The notes under the pieces are model-generated. The model was not told where the DNA came from. It worked only from the letters and a program-made list of their open reading frames with translations, and searched no databases. Of a DNA stretch of 64,000 nt, positions 9,499 through 25,880 are shown piece by piece; position 1 is the first letter of the stretch; the number at the start of each line of letters is the position of its first letter. Position numbers and translations under genes: made by a program. The stretch covers positions 1,561,501 to 1,625,500 of the forward strand of contig NZ_JOMJ01000003.1 of NCBI RefSeq assembly GCF_000711295.1. Reading direction: 5' to 3'. Source of the stretch: Desulfohalovibrio reitneri. Its GTDB lineage: Bacteria > Desulfobacterota > Desulfovibrionia > Desulfovibrionales > Desulfovibrionaceae.

Positions 9499-11187
9499 AT
9501 GAAGTTCATTCCGTCCCAGTTGATGTACCTGCTGCAGGACCGCCGGGCCAGGCGCAACCTGCGCTCCCTGCTCAAGTTCGTCCTTGTGCTGGTCTTTTTC
9601 GTGGCCCTGTACAGCGTCCTGTTCCACGTCCTCATGGAGCGCGAAGGGCAGCAGTTCTCCTGGATGACCGGCTTGTATTGGACCCTGACGGTCATGTCCA
9701 CGCTCGGCTTCGGCGACATCACCTTCACCAGCGACGTCGGCAGGCTCTTCTCCACCATCGTCCTGCTGACTGGCATCGTGTTCCTGCTGGTCATGCTGCC
9801 TTTCGCCTTCATCCAGTTCTTCTACGCCCCGTTCCTGGAGGCCCAGACCAAATCCAGGGCCCCCAGGGAGCTGCCGGAGCGGACTTCCGGACATCTGCTC
9901 ATCATCGGAGCCGGGGCCGCGGCCCTGAGCCTGGCCATGCGGTTGCGCCGCTTCTCCTATGACTACTGCATCCTGGTGCCCGAGGTGGCCCAGGCCCTGG
10001 AACTGGTGGACCAGGGATTCCGGGTGGTGGTGGGGGAGTACGACGCCACCCAGACATACCAGCGGCTGCGCGCGCACCAGGCGGCCATGATCGTGGCCCT
10101 GAGCGACGACATCAAGAACACCCATGCCTCCTACACCATCCGGGAAGTCACCGGCACTGTGCCCATAGTGGCCAACGCCGACTCCGGGGACTCGGTGGAT
10201 ATTCTGCAGCTGGCCGGAGCGCAGCACACGTACCAGTTCATGCACATGCTCGGGCAGATGCTTGCCCGGCGCATCCTCGGCACGGGCACAAAGAGCAACG
10301 TCATCGGCAGTCTCGGGGATCTGCACATCGCGGAAGCCCCAGCCCGGGGAACCGCGCTGGCCGGTCGCTCCATCCAGGACAGCGGCCTGCGGGAATCCAC
10401 CGGCATGAACGTGGTGGGCTTGTGGCAGCGCGGCCGGATGGTGCCGCCCCAGCTGGACACCGTCATCGATCCCAACGCCGCCCTGATTCTGGCCGGGACC
10501 ACGGAACAGCTGGAGGCCTACGACGAACTTGTTGGCGAGTCCCCGCCGGTCTCGTCCCCGGTGCTGATCCTGGGCGGCGGCAGGGTGGGCCAGGCCGCGG
10601 CGGAAGTCCTGCGGCAACGGGACGTGGAGTACCGCATCGTGGAGAAGAACCCCAAACGGGTTCCGGACGCGGCCAACTGGGTGCCCGGCAACGCCTCGGA
10701 CTACGACACCCTGGTGCGGGCGGGCATCAAGGAGGCGCCCTCGGTGTTCGTCACCACCCACAACGACGACCTGAACATCTACCTGACCATCTACTGCCGC
10801 CGCCTGCGGCCGGACATCCAGATCATCAGCCGCGCCACCCAGGACCGCAGCATCTCCGTGATGCACAAGGCCGGGGCCGACCTGGTCATGTCCTATTCCA
10901 CCATTACCGCCAACACGGTCATCAATCTGCTCAGCCCGGGCAAGGTGCTGACCCTGACCGAGGGGCTGAACATCTTCAGGGTGAAGGCGCACAGCTCCCT
11001 GGCCGGAAAGGCCCTTATCAACAGCGGCATACGGGAGGATACCGGCTGCAGCGTCATCGGCATCGACCGCCAAGCCGGGTTGGAAATCAATCCCGATCCC
11101 GCCACGAAACTCAAGAGCGGGGACTCCCTGCTGGTCATCGGCGACGCGGAATCCGAGCGCCGGTTCATGGCCAGGTTTCCGGAATGA
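9499..11187 (+). CDS. Potassium channel protein with two RCK (TrkA-N/TrkA-C) units
   Basis: A 562-residue protein. Two transmembrane helices (about 24-45 and 82-105) flank a pore with filter TLGFGD (residues 68-73), a normal K+ filter variant. Two Rossmann RCK domains follow: LLIIGAGAAALSLA near 135 and VLILGGGRVGQAAAE near 355. Each is followed by a TrkA-C-like region. The ATG at 9499 has AAGGAAG upstream and gives the expected short N-terminus. The encoded pore would be a ligand-gated K+ channel of the MthK type with two RCK units per chain. The DUF1538 operon begins 211 bp downstream and may share ion-homeostasis roles. Confidence 0.9.
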   Translation: MKFIPSQLMYLLQDRRARRNLRSLLKFVLVLVFFVALYSVLFHVLMEREGQQFSWMTGLYWTLTVMSTLGFGDITFTSDVGRLFSTIVLLTGIVFLLVMLPFAFIQFFYAPFLEAQTKSRAPRELPERTSGHLLIIGAGAAALSLAMRLRRFSYDYCILVPEVAQALELVDQGFRVVVGEYDATQTYQRLRAHQAAMIVALSDDIKNTHASYTIREVTGTVPIVANADSGDSVDILQLAGAQHTYQFMHMLGQMLARRILGTGTKSNVIGSLGDLHIAEAPARGTALAGRSIQDSGLRESTGMNVVGLWQRGRMVPPQLDTVIDPNAALILAGTTEQLEAYDELVGESPPVSSPVLILGGGRVGQAAAEVLRQRDVEYRIVEKNPKRVPDAANWVPGNASDYDTLVRAGIKEAPSVFVTTHNDDLNIYLTIYCRRLRPDIQIISRATQDRSISVMHKAGADLVMSYSTITANTVINLLSPGKVLTLTEGLNIFRVKAHSSLAGKALINSGIREDTGCSVIGIDRQAGLEINPDPATKLKSGDSLLVIGDAESERRFMARFPE

Positions 11188-11398: not shown

Positions 11399-12172
11399 AT
11401 GGACATGAAACAGACGCCCGGCATACGGAAAATAAGCCTCCTGGGGCGCGCCTTCGGCACCAAGCTGTGGAGCGCCTTCAAGGACCTGCTCCCCATCATC
11501 CTGGTCATCGCCTTCTTTCAGGGCGTGGTCATCCAGCAGCCGCTGCCGGACATGCTGGAAGCCCTGTTCGGCGGGTTTTTGGTGGTCCTCGGGCTCATGC
11601 TCTTCGTCCTGGGGCTGGAGATGGGCCTCTTTCCCATCGGCGAGAACATGGCCCACGCCCTGGCCCGCAAGGGCAGCCTCTTCTGGCTGCTCACCTTCGC
11701 CTTCGCCCTGGGCTTCTCCACCACGGTGGCGGAACCCGCCCTCATCGCCGTGGCCGCCGAGGCCGCCGAGATCGCCTCCACCGGAGGCCTCATCACTTCC
11801 GGCCAGCAGGCGATGGAGCAGTACGCCCTGGGGCTTCGCCTGTCCGTGGCCTTTTCCGTGGGGTTGGCCATCCTCATCGGCGTGCTCCGCATCCTCAAGG
11901 GCTGGCCCATCCACTACCTCATCATCGGCGGCTACGTGCTGGTCATGCTCATGACCCTGATCGCCCCCGAGCAAATCATCGGCATCGCCTACGACGCGGG
12001 CGGCGTGACCACCTCCACCGTGACCGTGCCCCTGGTGGCCGCGTTGGGCGTGGGCCTCGCCTCCATCATCAAAGGCCGCAGCCCCCTCTTGGACGGCTTC
12101 GGGCTCATCGCCTTCGCCTCGCTCCTGCCCATGATCTTCGTCATGGGCTACGGGGTGCTGGTGTTCAACTAG
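11399..12172 (+). CDS. DUF1538 family membrane protein (first of tandem pair)
   Basis: A 257-residue integral membrane protein with about seven hydrophobic segments. The hallmark motifs [15 protein letters not shown] and [17 protein letters not shown] recur in the next gene, so the pair arose by tandem duplication. Members of this family have no established biochemical function to my knowledge; a transporter or channel for cations is a reasonable guess. It is the first gene of an operon with a second DUF1538 protein, a PII-like protein and a CBS protein. An ATG at 11405 is an alternative start; neither has a clear ribosome binding site. Confidence 0.85.
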
Positions 12173-12187
12173 GACAGCGGGAACCAC

Positions 12188-12973
12188 ATGGAATTCCTTG
12201 CCAAGTTCGGATCCACCCTACTGTCCACGGTGCGGGACGTGCTGCCCATCATCGGGCTTATCGTCGGCTTTCAGTTGCTCATCCTGCGCCAGCCCATCCC
12301 CCATCTCAAAAGCCTCATCGTGGGCGGGATATACGTGGTGCTCGGCCTGGCCCTGTTCCTGGTGGGGCTGGAAAAGGCGCTCTTCCCGGTAGGCAAGATA
12401 ATGGCCCTGCAGCTCTCCAGCCCGGACTTCCTGCTGGGCGGCGACCCGACCGCCTGGACCGCCTACGGCTGGGTGTACCTGTTCGCCTTCCTCATCGGCT
12501 TCTCCACCACCATCGCGGAGCCCTCCCTGCTGGCCGTGGCCCTCAAGGCCAACGAAGTCTCCGGCGGCGTCATCAGCCAGTGGGGCCTGCGCATCACGGT
12601 GGCCGCCGGGGTGGCCATCGGCATCTCCCTGGGGGCCTTCCGCATCGTCACCGGCACCCCGCTCTACATGTACATCCTCGCAGGATACATCATGGTCGTC
12701 ATCCAGACCTTCCTCGCCCCGCGGAAGATCATCGCCCTGGCCTACGACTCGGGCGGCGTGACCACCTCCACGGTCACGGTCCCCCTTGTGGCCGCGCTGG
12801 GCCTGGGCCTGTCCGAGGCGGTGCCGGGCCGCGACCCGGCCCTGGACGGCTTCGGGCTCATCGCCTTCGCCAGCCTCTTTCCCATCATCACCGTCATGGG
12901 GTACGCCCAAATCGCCCACTGGATCGCCGCGCGGCCAACGCGGCGGAAACCCACCGGAGTGGAAAGCCGATGA
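12188..12973 (+). CDS. DUF1538 family membrane protein (second of tandem pair)
   Basis: A 261-residue membrane protein paralogous to the preceding gene. It shares GFSTTIAEPSLLAVA and [17 protein letters not shown] at equivalent places and has a similar hydrophobic profile. The gap from the first copy is only 15 bp, and its stop overlaps the PII-like start by 4 bases (ATGA). Two related half-proteins encoded together, plus a PII-like protein, suggest a hetero-oligomeric transporter gated by a PII-type regulator. That is inference. Confidence 0.85.
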   Translation: MEFLAKFGSTLLSTVRDVLPIIGLIVGFQLLILRQPIPHLKSLIVGGIYVVLGLALFLVGLEKALFPVGKIMALQLSSPDFLLGGDPTAWTAYGWVYLFAFLIGFSTTIAEPSLLAVALKANEVSGGVISQWGLRITVAAGVAIGISLGAFRIVTGTPLYMYILAGYIMVVIQTFLAPRKIIALAYDSGGVTTSTVTVPLVAALGLGLSEAVPGRDPALDGFGLIAFASLFPIITVMGYAQIAHWIAARPTRRKPTGVESR

Positions 12974-13317
12974 AGTTCAAGATGATTTACGCGCCGGTCA
13001 AGCCGCACAAGACCGACCCCATCGTGGACGCCGCCAAGAAGGCGGGTGCCACCGGGGCCACCATCATCCAGGCCAGGGGGACGGGCATGCGGGAGGCCAA
13101 GACCTTCTTCGGCCTGACCCTGGAGGACCAGACCGACATCGTCATGTTCCTCCTGGAGGAGCACTTGGTGGACCCCGTTCTGGAGGCCATCAAGACCGCC
13201 GGGGAGTTCCACAAGCCGGGCACCGGCATCGCCTTCGTCATGCCGGTGGACAGGGTGGTCGGCCTGGAGAGCCAGATCGAGAAGTTCAAGGAAGAGGTCA
13301 GGGACAAGTACCTCTAG
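12970..13317 (+). CDS. PII-like signalling protein
   Basis: A 115-residue protein with the ferredoxin-like pattern of the PII superfamily: MKFKMIYAPVKPHKTDPIVDAAKKAGATGA at the N-terminus (given here only as its general composition), a central T-loop-like segment around TGMREAKTF, and FVMPVDRVVGLESQI near the end. It lacks the canonical GlnB uridylylation region, so it is PII-like rather than GlnB/GlnK. Such proteins usually bind a nucleotide and control a membrane partner encoded next door. The 4-bp overlap with the second DUF1538 gene makes that protein the obvious partner. Confidence 0.8.
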   Translation: MKFKMIYAPVKPHKTDPIVDAAKKAGATGATIIQARGTGMREAKTFFGLTLEDQTDIVMFLLEEHLVDPVLEAIKTAGEFHKPGTGIAFVMPVDRVVGLESQIEKFKEEVRDKYL

Positions 13318-17921: not shown

Positions 17922-20569
17922 ATGAGCAGCGAGAAGAACACCGGCCCGGAAACCTGGGACGGGGAGGCGGCTCCGGAAAACGGGGAGCAGCCTCCCGCAG
18001 AGGAACCCCGGGACGAGGCCGAAGGGTCTCCCGGGGAAGGCGCTGAAGGCGATCGGGACGAGGAAGTCCCTGCGGACAGCCACGCCAGCGAGGACGAACC
18101 GGACGAGCCGGCCCATCTGCTGGTGGGCGTGGGGGCCTCCGCCGGGGGCTGGAGGCGTTCTCGGCCCTGCTGGGCTCCCTGAAGAACAACGGCTGCTGCA
18201 GCCTGCTCCTCATCCAGCACCAGGCCAAGGAATCGGAGCGGGACATCCTCTCCTCCCTGGTGCAGAAGGAGACCGAGGTCCCGGTGGCCGTGGCCGAGGA
18301 CGGCATGGCCGTGGAGCCCGGACGCATCTACGTCACCCCGCCGGGCAACTCGCTGACCGTCTATGACGGCAAAATGCTGCTGGAGCCGCCTGACGACCAC
18401 ACCTCCAGGGCCATCATCGACACTCTCTTCCGCAGCCTGGCGGAGGAGGCGGGCGGCAGGTCTGTGGCGGTCCTGCTGTCGGGTTCCAACGCCGACGGCA
18501 CCCTGGGGGCGCGGGCCATCAAGGAGGCCAACGGCCTGGTCATCGCCCAGAACCCGGAAACCGCCCAGTTCCCCACCATGCCCCAGAGCGTCATCGACGA
18601 GGACCTGGCCGACCTGGTGCTGGAACCGGCGGCGATGGCCTCCCACATCATGGACTACGCCCGGCGGCTTCCGCTGGTCCCCTCTGGCGCGCAGCCCGGC
18701 AAAGAGACACTGCCGACCAGCGCGCGGGACAAGCTGCTCCTTTTGCTCAAGACCCAGACCGGCCACGACTTTTCCCTGTACAAGGAATCCACCATCAACC
18801 GCCGCATCCGCAGGCGGATGATCCTCCACCAGACCGGCCGGCCCAAGGACTACCTGGCCCATCTGCGGGACGACAAGGCCGAACTCCGCGCCCTGTTCAA
18901 GGACCTGCTCATCGGGGTGACCAACTTCTTCCGGGATCCTTCGGCCTTCGAGGCGCTCAAGGAGATACTGGTCAAGACGGCCCTGCCGGAGCTCGACCAA
19001 GCCCGTTACCGAGTCTGGATTCCAGGCTGCGCCACGGGCGAGGAGGCGTACTCCGTGGCCATCATCCTGCGCGAGGCCATGGATGAACTGGAACTGGACC
19101 TGCAAGTGGACATATACGCCACGGATCTCAACGAGGACGCCATAGCCCAGGCACGCCGGGGAATATTCCCGGCCACCATCGAGGCCGACGTTTCCGAAGA
19201 GAGGCTGCGGCGCTTTTTCTCGAAAAGCGAACGGAAATACCACATCAGGCAAAAAATCCGGGAGATGGTGGTCTTCGCCGAGCAGAACCTCATCGCCGAC
19301 CCGCCTTTCTCCAACCTGGACATGGTCTGCTGCCGCAACCTGCTCATGTACCTCAAGCCCAAGGCGCAGAAGAAGGCCCTTTCCCAGTTCCGCTACGGGC
19401 TGCGGCAGGGCGGCCTGCTCATGCTGGGCACCTCGGAAAGCGTGGGCGACTTCTCCGCCGTCTTCGCCCCCCTGGACAATAAGTCCCGCATCTACCGCAT
19501 CAAGCGGGGCAAGGCGTCGGTCCGGCTGGCCGAAACGCCTGAACTGCCCGAATACCGCCCCCGCACCCCTCAGACGCAAGCTCGGCGCGGAAACGCGGCC
19601 AGAGACGAGAATCGGGATTTCAAGCGGTCCGCGGAGCGTTTTCTTCTGGAGATCGCCGGTCCGGCGGTGCTGGTCAACCGCAACGGTGATGCCCTGTACT
19701 TCCACGGCCGCTCCGGGCGCTATCTGGAGCCAGCCCAGGGCGCGCCCCGGGCCAACGTGCTGGAGATGGCCCGCAAGGGGCTGTCCTACCCCCTTTCCTC
19801 CGCCCTGAGTTCTGCGGCCGCCCGAAGCGAGCCACAGACACGCACGGGGGTGCGGGTGCGGGACGCGGGCCTGGACGAACAGGGCCGCAGGCTGGCGGAG
19901 TTCATTGTGCGCGACACCGGCCGGGGCATCCCGAAGGACCGGCTGGAGCACGTCATGCAGCCCTTCGCCCAGGCCGAGGAGACCTACACCAAGAAGATCG
20001 CCGGAACCGGCCTGGGGCTGGCCATCGTCAAGCGGCTGGTGGAGCTCATGGACGGCGAGCTGCGCGTGGAAAGCGAGCAGGGCCAAGGCACCGAGGCCCG
20101 CTTTACCCTGCCCCTGGCCGAAGCGACCGGGGAACGGAGGCAGGACCCCGAAGAATCCCGGCTGGAGCCGAAGGAAAAGGTTCCCAGCCTGCGGCTGCTT
20201 CTGGTGGAGGACAACCGGGTCAACCAGCTGGCCGCCACCCGTTTTCTGGCCGAGGCCGGACACCACGTCACCGTGGCCGGAGACGGCCAACAGGCCCTGG
20301 ATATGCTGGACGAGGACGGCTTCGACGCCGTGCTCATGGACGTTCAGATGCCGGAAATGGACGGCCTGGAAGCCACCCGCCGCATCCGCGACGGGGAGAC
20401 CGGCGCGCCGCGCGACATCCCCATCATCGCCCTGACCGCCTACGTACGCGACGAGGAAGTGCAGCGCTTCCGCGACAACGGCATGGACGGCCACATCGCC
20501 AAGCCCTTCGTCTTCAGCGAACTCGACGCCGACATCCGCCGCGCGATCAGCGAAAAGAAGTCCGGCTAG
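17922..20569 (+). pseudogene. Broken CheB-CheR-histidine kinase-receiver fusion
   Basis: An acidic leader (~65 residues) leads into a CheB methylesterase domain ([22 protein letters not shown]), a CheR methyltransferase ([29 protein letters not shown]), a truncated HATPase and a C-terminal receiver ([12 protein letters not shown]). Two defects are visible. First, a -1 frameshift in the G-run at 18144-18148, exactly in the CheB active-site loop; one extra G restores GASAGGLEAF. Second, after the CheR tail ([12 protein letters not shown]) the sequence jumps in frame to the HATPase G1 box (VRDTGRGIP), so PAS, HisKA with the phospho-His, and the N-box are absent. Even with the frameshift repaired, the kinase part could not work as usual. 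The stop overlaps the converging gene by 4 bp. Confidence 0.85.
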
Positions 20570-22574: not shown

Positions 22575-24677
22575 ATGCTGCGCTCCATCAAGACCAAGCT
22601 CATCGCCGGGCTGGTGGTCCTCATCTCGTTGATGATGGTGGCCATTCTCGTCCTGGCCGCATCCAATTTCAGGGAACAGTCCTACGAGTCCTTCAAGCGC
22701 TCCATAACCGGCGAGCTTTCCCAGGTGGAGAAGGCCATCTCCATCTTTCTGGAAGAAAGCCGCATGAACGCCGACATGCTGGCCAGCCTCCCCATGTCCC
22801 AGCGGCTGGACAGAGTGGCCACCAGCTTTGTGGACGCCGACGAGCCCCGCTCCGCAGAACCCGACTCCGGCGATTTCGTCGGGCGGCAGATCGTCAAGTC
22901 CTTCCGGGCCATGCAGGAATCCCACCCCTCGTATGTGGAAGTCTACCTCGGCAACGAGAACGGCGGCTTCATCAGCGCGCGCACGGACACCACCATGCCC
23001 CCGGGGTACGACCCCAGGGCGCGGCCCTGGTACAAGGAGGCCCTGCCCGTCACCGGCCGCGCCTCCATCTCCAAGGCCTACCGCTCCACCACCGGGCAGA
23101 TCGTGGCCAGCGTCACCCGCACGGTGCTGCGCGACGGCGAGCCCATCGGCGTGGTCGGCATGGACATCTCCCTGGACAGGCTGACCGAGCTGGTCGGCTC
23201 CATCCAACTCGGCCAGTCCGGCTACGTGGTGCTGCTCCAGGACGACGGCGTCATCCTGGCCGACCCCAGGAACGAGGACGCCATCTTCAAGAACGTGGAC
23301 GAACTGGAGGCCGGCTATCTGTCCGACCTCTTCGCCATGGGCTCCGGTTCCGCGCGGGTCACGGCCGACGGCACGGAGAAGCTCGGCGTGGTCGTCACCG
23401 CGCCGGACACGGGCTGGAAGCTCATCGGCCTGCTGGACATGGCCGAGATCAACCAGCCGGTGGAGCGGACCATCACCTACCTCTCCCTGGTCGGGCTCAT
23501 CTCCCTGGCCGTCATCGCGGTGGTCATCTGGCTTTTCTCCAACCGGGTCATCATCCGGCCGCTCGGACGCATCACCAAGGCGCTGAACACCATTTCCGGC
23601 GGGGACTACGCCTACCGCGAAGAGCATACCCGCTCCGACGAGATCGGCGACATTCTGGACACCCTCAACGCCACCGCCTCCACCCTGGAGGAGAACGACA
23701 AGGAAATCCGCCGCAAGAGCCGCGAAGCCGAGGAGAAGGCGGCCGCCGCCGAGGAAGCCAAGGGCGAGGCGGAAGAGGCCCTGCGCCAGGCGCGCAAGGC
23801 CCGCAGCGAAGGCATGCTGCAGGCCGCGGACAAGCTGGAGAGCGTGGTCCACATCGTTGGCTCCGCTTCCGAGGAGCTGGCCGCCCAGATCGAGCAGTCC
23901 AGCCGGGGGGCCGAGAGCCAGGCCCAGCGCGTCACCGAGACGGCGACGGCCATGGAGGAGATGAACGCCTCCGTCCTGGAGGTGGCCCAGAACGCCTCCA
24001 AGGCGGCGGAAAGCGCGGACAACGCCCGCCAGAAGGCCCAGGAGGGCGAACGGATCGTGGAGCGGGTCATCGAGTCCATCGGGCAGATCAACCACCAGGC
24101 CCAGGGCATGAAGGACTCCCTGGGCGAACTGGGCGGCCAGGCCCAGGGCATCGGCCAGATCATGGAGGTCATCACCGACATCGCCGACCAGACCAACCTG
24201 CTGGCGCTCAACGCGGCCATCGAGGCCGCCCGCGCTGGCGAGGCGGGTCGCGGCTTCGCCGTGGTGGCCGACGAGGTGCGCAAGCTGGCCGAGAAGACCA
24301 TGTCCGCCACCAAGGAGGTGGGGCAGGCGGTGGAGGCCATCCAGAGCGGCACCCGGACCAACATCGAGAGCATGGACCAGGCCGCCCGGGTGGTGGTCGA
24401 AACCAACGAGATGGCCTCCCAGGCGGGCGGCGCGCTGCGGGAGATCCTCGGCATCGTGGAGTCCACCGCCGACCAGGTCCGCTCCATCGCCACCGCCTCG
24501 GAGGAGCAGTCCGCCTCCAGCGAGGAGATCAACCGCTCCATGACCGAGGTGAACACCATCTCCGCGGAGACCTCCCAGGCCATGAACCAGGCGGCGGAGG
24601 CGGTCAGCTCGCTCTCCCAGCAGGCGCAGGAGCTGCGCACCCTCATCCAGGAACTGCAGGAGGAGGGGCAGGGCTAG
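22575..24677 (+). CDS. Methyl-accepting chemotaxis protein with dCache sensor
   Basis: A 700-residue chemoreceptor. It has TM1 at about 8-30, a periplasmic dCache-type ligand domain (about 35-300, with [11 protein letters not shown] and [12 protein letters not shown]), TM2 at about 303-325, HAMP (about 327-380), a short coiled coil and a signalling domain (about 420-690). The tip motif [20 protein letters not shown] is clear (quoted to 20 residues). Small-molecule ligands such as amino or organic acids are typical of this sensor fold. The start at 22575 has GGGGGG/AAG upstream and gives a normal N-terminal anchor. It is not clustered with other che genes apart from the broken fusion upstream. 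Confidence 0.95.
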
Positions 24678-24830
24678 CCTCACGCGCGCCCCCGGCCTCG
24701 GGGCCTGGACATCCCTCCGGGCTTGTGCTTTGTTCCCCGGCGCGGGGCCGATACGCGGCTCCGCGCCGGAACCACGTGGCCCGGGAGGTACGCGCGACAT
24801 GCCCCCAGCAGCACCCAACCCCGCCGCCTC

Positions 24831-25880
24831 ATGAGACGCGCAGGCCTCTCACGCAGGCTGCGCTTCGCCGCCTTTCTGCTGCTCTCGTTGCTGTGCCTGC
24901 TCCTGCTGGGCATGGGCGGGTTCATGCTGGTGGAGGACGTCTCGCCCGTGGAGGCCCTCTACCTGACCATCGGCACCCTGACCACGGTGGCCCCCTTCCA
25001 CCTCACCGAAGGCGGGCGGGTCTTCGCGATCCTCCTCATCCTGTCCGGGTTCGGCCTGGTGGCGGCCACCGCCGCCTTCGTGGGCAACCTGTTCCTGGAC
25101 GGGCAGGCCCTGGAACTGTACCGGAGGCGAAAGATGCGCAAGGAACTCGGGAAACACTCCGACCACTACGTCATCTGCGGGTTCGGGCAGATGGGGCAGA
25201 TCGTCACCGCCGAACTGATGCGCAACGGCGTGTCCGTTGTGGTCATCGACACCGACGAGCAGGCGGTACTGCGCTGCCGCGAGTTGGGCGCGCCCGCCAT
25301 CAGGCGCGACGCCATGGAGGAGGAGAGCCTGGCCGAGGCCGGGGTGGAGCGCGCCAGGGGCGTCATCTCGGTGGTCAACCGCGACGCGGACAACGTCTTT
25401 ATCGTGGTCACGGCCCGCGCCCTGAACCCGGAGGTGTTCATCAGCGCCCGGGCCAGCAGCCGGGGCGTGGAGAAAAAACTCTACCTGGCCGGGGCAAACC
25501 ACGTGGTCTCGCCCTACGCCAGCGCGGCCATGCGCATCACCCAGAACATCCTCCGCCCCACCATCACCGACTTCATGGAGCAGGCCGTTTCCGGCAGAGA
25601 GGTGGAACTCGAACTCGAGGAGCTGTGCATTCCGGAGAGCGCCCCCTTCGCGGGCAAGTCGCTCATGGAATCCAACATCCGCAACGACTTCGACCTGATC
25701 GTCGTGGCCATCAAGCGCGGCGATGGCAAACGGATCTACAACCCCGCCTCGCTGGAACCAATCCACGCCGGGGACACCCTCATCGCCATCGGCCCCCGGG
25801 CCAACATGGACCGCTTCCACAAGTCCCTGTACGGCAAGCCCAGGCCCGCCAGCAACGGCGGCCAGCCCATCCCCGGCTAA
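24831..25880 (+). CDS. Two-TM channel-like protein with RCK domains and a non-canonical filter
   Basis: About 349 residues. One transmembrane helix (about 10-32), a pore-helix region, a second helix (about 65-88), then TrkA-N (VICGFGQMGQIV near 110) and TrkA-C (about 255-340). The architecture is that of a prokaryotic K+ channel. The filter, however, which should read TTVGYGD, reads TTVAPFH (residues 51-57), losing both glycines and the Asp. It may conduct a different ion, or be a regulated non-conducting protein. No clear ribosome binding site precedes ATG 24831, so the start could be further upstream (for example 24723). Confidence 0.82.
   Translation: MRRAGLSRRLRFAAFLLLSLLCLLLLGMGGFMLVEDVSPVEALYLTIGTLTTVAPFHLTEGGRVFAILLILSGFGLVAATAAFVGNLFLDGQALELYRRRKMRKELGKHSDHYVICGFGQMGQIVTAELMRNGVSVVVIDTDEQAVLRCRELGAPAIRRDAMEEESLAEAGVERARGVISVVNRDADNVFIVVTARALNPEVFISARASSRGVEKKLYLAGANHVVSPYASAAMRITQNILRPTITDFMEQAVSGREVELELEELCIPESAPFAGKSLMESNIRNDFDLIVVAIKRGDGKRIYNPASLEPIHAGDTLIAIGPRANMDRFHKSLYGKPRPASNGGQPIPG

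Follow-up and report, generated by a model that had tools for sequence, protein, structure and literature searches.

A 2TM-RCK protein of Desulfohalovibrio reitneri with a shortened pore loop in place of the K+ channel filter

Described channels with RCK domains or altered filters

The closest PDB relatives by sequence of the protein described here are the RCK channels GsuK, which is the best match, and MthK (query residues 6–330, E 3.5e-24). GsuK is an RCK protein that is activated by ADP and NAD+ (PMC3510474). Tetrameric pores that have an altered filter and conduct are already known, i.e., CASTOR, NaKTs and TbIRK, and one of these, CASTOR, is RCK-gated. CASTOR is described as Ca2+-selective, without TVGYG and with the filter ADS(A)GNHA (PMC6697748). 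NaKTs from Tsukamurella paurometabola has two TM segments (2TM) and a proline-bearing filter, LPMGNGPLSP, and conducts non-selectively; its authors state that no similar filter was present in the databases (PMC5052707). TbIRK from Trypanosoma brucei is Kir-related, has the filter GGYVG and is moderately K+-selective (PMC5429665). These three proteins show that conduction is possible without the standard signature.

The window analyzed here is a stretch of 64,000 nt from Desulfohalovibrio reitneri (positions 1,561,501–1,625,500 of contig NZ_JOMJ01000003.1, forward strand). It carries a gene for a 2TM-RCK protein that has no GYG filter, and filter-less relatives with 59–71% identity to this protein are carried by eight further genomes. 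The window protein has the same order of parts as MthK, which is also the top fold match, although to a weak model, and the nine proteins, termed the clade below, keep the hinge-region glycine and the S4 Thr. However, the clade is without the GYG filter, its loop is three residues shorter, and the Ca2+ ligands of MthK are not conserved in the window protein. GsuK differs from the window protein in having two RCK domains and, by pairwise alignment, an intact GFGD filter. The Desulfobacterota 2TM-RCK channels L044–L057 (T[VI]G[FY]xE), which group with the clade in the tree and have 48–54% identity, retain a loop of full length and the first Gly of the filter.

NaK-type 2TM channels are not known to have an RCK domain, and the clade differs from them in that an RCK part is present, the loop is shorter and there is no Gly in the [AS]PF motif. 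The Castor/Pollux domain, which we take to be a Pfam family, is not among the three Pfam families of the window protein; two TM helices are present, and there is no fixed filter acid. The plant channels CASTOR, POLLUX and DMI1 resemble the clade, if its members conduct, as RCK-gated pores without TVGYG, but they are described with an Asp that is needed for current, four predicted TM segments and an extra soluble half (PMC6697748). NaKTs resembles the clade as a 2TM protein with an odd proline-bearing filter, but its filter keeps glycines and it is described as a simple 2TM channel (PMC5052707). TbIRK, like the clade, is without the K+ channel signature sequence (PMC5429665), and the filter of NaK is TVGDG (PMC8689586). 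The A/S-P-F motif is absent from the filters of CASTOR, NaKTs and TbIRK, and searches of the openly licensed literature on channels and on the carrier organisms listed no paper on the clade and no text on filter deletion in Shaker.

The protein and its shortened pore loop

The features of the gene are listed in Table 1. The ATG start is backed by homologues with the same start point, although the open frame extends further upstream, as far as a TTG at 24723. A possible leader ORF of 11 residues is present at window positions 24799–24834 (+), with GGGAGGT before it; its TGA and the ATG of the channel-like gene overlap as ATGA, so that translation of the two could be coupled.

Table 1. Positions in the window of the gene and of the parts of its protein
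Feature	Position	Strand	Basis
Filter-less 2TM-RCK protein gene, 349 aa	24831–25880	+	ORF translation; homologues begin at same Met
TM1, about residues 12–36	24864–24938	+	Pfam Ion_trans_2 20–88; AlphaFold helix 4–35
Pore helix, residues 39–50; Gly48 at MthK V55 / KcsA E71 position	24945–24980	+	AlphaFold helix 39–50; MthK alignment
Filter region, TTVAPFHL where relatives have TTVG[FY]xE...L; net loss of three residues	24981–25004	+	Translation; alignments; loop count
TM2, residues 60–89, with GFGLVAATAAFVGN	25008–25097	+	MthK alignment; clade alignment; AlphaFold model
RCK N-lobe (TrkA_N, residues 113–228), GxGxxG motif GFGQMG	25164–25520	+	Pfam; clade alignment
RCK C-lobe (TrkA_C, residues 264–332)	25620–25826	+	Pfam

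Ion_trans_2, TrkA_N and TrkA_C occur in this order, each above its Pfam gathering score, and this agrees with the sequence-only reading of the gene, which had proposed an intact 2TM plus RCK architecture; no other Pfam family was found in the 349 aa protein at E ≤ 0.001. The window protein was modeled by AlphaFold as a monomer from five sequences, with the filter-bearing L039 as a control. Both models are weak and display helix order only (mean pLDDT 65 for the window protein and 52 for L039), and the window model, with a pTM of 0.42, has little information on the pore. The P-loop in these weak models is 9 residues in the window protein and 11 in L039. A fold search with the weak window model gives MthK chains as top matches with an E of 5.8e-19, but the TM-score is only 0.31.

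Residues 51–57 are TTVAPFH (T51-T52-V53-A54-P55-F56-H57), as originally read, where relatives have T[VI]G[FY]xE. It had been asked whether filters of the APFH type are conserved or whether the homologues all have GYGD-type filters. All nine clade members are without a G[FY]G filter, and among homologues GF or GY is found only at about ≤54% identity, i.e., not among the close ones. The motif is APF in six of the genes, including that of the window, SPF in two (genomes G289 and G325) and AGT in one (G322), and the K+ signature T-x-G-[YF]-G is present in none. The loop from the TT[VI] of the pore helix to the G[RKQ] that opens TM2 is 8 residues in all nine members and 11 residues in all 56 outside relatives that were read (52 by pattern and four by eye). 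As read from the sequences, the change in the clade is a substitution together with a net loss of three residues. The site of the gap is ambiguous: phmmer and MAFFT both place APFH opposite GYGD (or GFxE) with the gap after it, and an alternative alignment by eye, in which G[FY]G is deleted and APFH lies opposite the outer-mouth loop, fits about equally.

The 56 outside rows were taken from L002, L009–L035, L039 and L044–L071, i.e., the wider Desulfobacterota 2TM-RCK family, and exclude L048, which is identical to L039. All are T[VI]G[FY]xE, and none is without the first glycine or the full loop length. This wider family is already loose at the third filter glycine, which is kept in 28 of the 56 rows and is M, Q, T, R, S or K in the other 28. 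The single-glycine filter of the latter is presumably somewhat like that of Trk/Ktr/HKT proteins.

Residue 48 of the window protein aligns with MthK V55, which is equivalent to KcsA E71 and lies behind the filter (PMC10274084). It is Gly in all eight [AS]PF members and Val in the AGT member; the outside rows have Ile (55) or Val (1), with 52 counted and four read by eye. Gly at this position is what packing of the new Pro-Phe turn against the former backing of the filter would lead one to expect. A single split in the tree lies behind both Gly48 and P-F, so this represents one coincident change and not repeated covariation. Other pore positions are retained. The GFG stretch in TM2 is kept in 9/9 members and, as we take it, aligns with the hinge glycine of MthK. 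T52, which aligns with MthK T59, and V/I53 are also kept in 9/9; the hydroxyl of the filter threonine helps to form the innermost K+ site (PMC8689586). The residue after P-F is polar in 8/8 members yet variable (H, D, D, E, Q, T, T, E; S in the AGT form), and there is thus no conserved selectivity ring.

The GxGxxG Rossmann motif is present in 9/9 of the clade RCK N-lobes as GHGQ[MIV]G or GFGQMG, and nucleotide regulation of the RCK part is therefore a fair inference. The Ca2+ ligands of MthK are presumably D184, E210 and E212 (D184N and E212Q occur in PDB titles). These positions face V181, R207 and S209, by hand count in a pairwise alignment, and the protein does not have the ligands of an MthK-like Ca2+-gated channel. 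With these ligands not conserved, Ca2+ is the less likely regulator, and regulation by NAD(H), ADP or ATP is predicted by analogy with GsuK and TrkA relatives.

Distribution, phylogeny and selection

The nine carriers are G000 (D. reitneri), G221, G229, G289, G322, G325, G478, G940 and G960. Four relatives were obtained in a scan of genome contigs. TTVAPF is present in three of them, from two Desulfobacterales MAGs (70 and 69% identity) and from Salidesulfovibrio brasiliensis (63%); the fourth, L039 (50%), has STVGFGE. The two MAGs are G478 and G960, and S. brasiliensis is G221, so that all three are within the nine carriers. The filter-less form is present in at least three of 288 genomes of the family of D. 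reitneri (G000, G221, G229), where 282 genomes matched, 30 loci were fetched and most filters are unread. It is present in 3/11 genomes of a second family of the same order (G289, G322, G325; cut-off 1e-70) and in 3/36 genomes of a third family from another order (G478, G940, G960; cut-off 1e-90). Among 389 sampled genomes of the class of G478, only the latter three match at E ≤ 1e-105. A sample of the phylum comprised 395 genomes, of which 31 gave a match at E ≤ 1e-75: two are filter-less (G000 and G478), 28 are filter-bearing, and one (G488) is without a locus and its filter is unread. With these cut-offs, and with samples that were partly evenly drawn, more distant filter-less forms may be missed.

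Spread of the gene on viruses or plasmids was considered and rejected. No relative of the filter-less gene was found in the viral contig collection searched, and the 196 matching records in a plasmid collection all have less than 60% identity, the best 10 of the 196 being at 25–31%.

In a maximum likelihood tree of 66 rows (midpoint root) the nine filter-less proteins form one clade with support of 100/100. Together with 15 filter-bearing rows from other Desulfobacterota families, which include L048, they form a fork of 24 rows with support of 100/99. The nearest of the filter-bearing relatives are 48–54% identical to the window protein. Since a single, fully supported clade groups with filter-bearing channels, one loss of the filter is the simplest reading of the tree. 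The AGT form branches first, with its split from the other eight at 95/86, and may represent a stepping stone of the filter loss. Both the order of domains and common descent within this fork place the clade with the 2TM-RCK channels of MthK/GsuK type. The sequence-only reading had suggested a new class of nucleotide-regulated pore. The altered filter stands, but a new class is too strong a term, as descent from filter-bearing 2TM-RCK channels is clear and filter-altered pores of known function exist.

Ratios of dN/dS were computed from dN and dS. In the clade pairs with the lowest dS, L037/L072, L036/L037 and L036/L072, they are 0.09, 0.20 and 0.14 for the membrane part and 0.08, 0.07 and 0.09 for the RCK part; the pairs L007/L008, L001/L036 and L041/L040 have a dS > 1.2, which is near saturation. 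In the canonical pairs L045/L047 and L044/L049, the membrane part has ratios of 0.19 and 0.20 and the RCK part ratios of 0.06 and 0.07. The membrane part of the clade is under purifying selection and is about as constrained as canonical pores. The pore part outpaces the RCK part relative to dS in two of the three clade pairs, as it does in the canonical pairs.

Conservation was averaged over eight clade rows, with L042 excluded because it is cut by a contig end, and over 13 sister rows, which retain L048 and omit L055 (contig end) and L039. Overall identity is similar (0.65 in clade rows and 0.63 in sister rows). Mean identity is 0.52 vs 0.36 in TM1 and 0.68 vs 0.56 in TM2, but for the pore helix the sister rows have the higher value (0.674 vs 0.764). 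The ratio of membrane to RCK conservation is 0.92 (95% interval 0.81–1.05) in the clade and 0.79 (0.67–0.91) in the sister rows, and since the intervals overlap the difference is a tendency. The ratio of TM2 to RCK conservation is 1.01 in the clade vs 0.82. Taken together, selection and conservation argue against free drift of the membrane part.

Possible functions, partners and habitat

A stand-alone, nucleotide-gated 2TM-RCK pore with a rebuilt and shortened filter, probably poorly selective, is the reading favored here, tentatively and with confidence that is close to even. It is based on the observed sequence and its conservation, the single clade, the purifying selection on the pore and the change at residue 48. 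A channel lineage similar to MthK and GsuK would have lost its K+ filter once, and the pore mouth would have been rebuilt afterwards. T52-V53, at the innermost site (S4), would have been retained, with a short A/S-P-F turn in place of G-[FY]-x. A reduction to Gly of the residue that backs the filter would have let the new turn pack against the pore helix. The protein is predicted to be a homotetramer. Its cytosolic RCK ring would bind NAD(H), ADP or ATP at the intact GxGxxG site and, with nucleotide bound, would pull a TM2 gate that has the retained hinge glycines of MthK type. With one of four K+ sites left, the open pore should be weakly selective and would pass monovalent cations. Tetramer, ligand, gating, conduction and selectivity are all predicted properties. 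Equally, a loop that is three residues shorter and has a P-F turn could seal the pore.

A sealed protein, i.e., a non-conducting pseudochannel, is the main alternative, less probable than the pore but serious. The membrane part would then anchor and tetramerize a nucleotide-sensing RCK ring that signals to, or competes with, a protein such as TrkH. The filter is gone, the residue behind it is Gly, and tight packing would be possible for TM2, which is rich in Ala (AATAA). TrkH, which is a partner of an RCK ring, TrkA (PMC6987127), was found in 8/9 carrier genomes and is missing in G322, which is 53% complete. However, the membrane part is selected about as strongly as that of the canonical relatives, TM2 relatively more so, and the GFG stretch and the S4 Thr are kept in 9/9, whereas more drift would be expected in a part that serves only as an anchor.

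The neighbors of the gene in the window are a dCache chemotaxis receptor gene, which ends at 24677, on one side and a helix-turn-helix/PAS/histidine kinase gene on the other. Further upstream is a CheB-CheR-histidine kinase-response regulator fusion (18260–20566, +). A 616 aa frame at 11467–13317 (+) has an end stretch that, as we take it, resembles a P-II-type protein. Nine regions were compared, i.e., 28 kb of the window and eight loci, using ORFs ≥ 70 aa and blastp at E ≤ 1e-8; three of the nine are short contigs of 6.4, 3.6 and 7.9 kb with flanks that are little seen. No orthologous neighbor gene common to the nine regions, the three short contigs included, was found, and a conserved operon partner is rejected. 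The filter-less gene is the sole group common to 8/9 regions; the G325 copy runs off its contig and was not counted. Groups in 7, 4, 3 or 2 regions are frames that overlap the gene, with the exception of one loose group of 14 ORFs in 4/9 regions. The six of these that were scanned encode histidine kinases, response regulators or fusions of the two; GGDEF occurs in one and CheB/CheR in one. By their matches, the ORFs of the loose group share domains and are not one orthologous gene. Signaling kinases and regulators in four of the regions are consistent with a pseudochannel, though the genes differ, and the lack of a conserved partner gene in the nine regions argues against it.

It is improbable that the protein is a modifying subunit, i.e., that it joins an ordinary K+ channel of its own cell in mixed tetramers and so alters the selectivity of this channel or silences it. 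There are further Ion_trans_2 matches in G221, G229, G289 and G940 and three others in D. reitneri, where the co-resident channel genes include L002 (STVGYMEV) and a gene with the filter STLGFGDI. L002, however, is only about 34% identical to the window protein and sits far from the clade in the tree. The second gene, at window positions 9580–11184 (+), is GsuK-like; it encodes a single 2TM pore together with two RCK domains, and its filter, STLGFGDITF, is intact. The fourth Ion_trans_2 match of this genome, G000:C3:1900760–1900915 (-) (L092), is within an open frame of 821 codons. Against mixed tetramers, no second Ion_trans_2 gene was found in G478, which is 99% complete, and none beyond the filter-less gene in G322, G325 and G960, which are 53, 85 and 62% complete (E ≤ 0.001 in all four). 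As there is no fixed operon or channel partner, the filter-less protein probably works alone.

There is a very low probability that a new geometry maintains K+ selectivity in the pore, as in TbIRK with GGYVG. T52-V53 is kept, and TbIRK has a pK/pNa of about 7 without the signature, but the TbIRK motif keeps three glycines that are important by mutation (PMC5429665), whereas the clade loop is three residues shorter than that of its relatives and [AS]PF is glycine-free. Sequencing error, local decay or a pseudogene is ruled out for practical purposes by the shortened loop and open frames in nine genomes (L042 runs off its contig) and by the purifying selection on the pore part, with dN/dS of 0.09–0.20; a stop listed within the G289 match is taken as the stop codon of that gene, which is a closed ORF of 345 aa.

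Three carriers, S. brasiliensis and two MAGs, have a named source, which is saline in each case. S. brasiliensis is a moderate halophile according to a title in the reference list of PMC9174804. The Great Salt Lake sediment sites GB14 and GSL3510 are given as 11.66% and 12.14% salt (PMC8506154), and the MAGs are assigned to these two sites by inference from their names. Ectoine synthase was considered as a marker of salt life and is of no use here: there was no match in any of the nine carriers, and in one search G221 and G229 were outside the 15 matching genomes. The link to high salt, which concerns three of the nine carriers, is a lead and not a result. A bolder proposal, which is unlikely as it stands, is that a single deletion of three residues, followed by refitting with an A/S-P-F turn, produced a class of RCK-gated pore that has not been described before. 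In sulfate reducers at high salt this pore would serve for nucleotide-gated release, not of K+ but of Na+, organic cations or small osmolytes.

The GYG filter is a textbook part of K+ channels, and here it has been removed, most simply once, with the remaining pore kept under selection. The clade is thus a naturally occurring parallel to experiments in which the filter is deleted; Shaker without Tyr-Gly reportedly behaves like a CNG channel. As the window protein is small and bacterial, the use that is made of a K+ channel fold without its filter is directly testable. In these sulfate reducers the clade proteins probably serve for unselective passage of ions, for passage of something else, or as a sensor.
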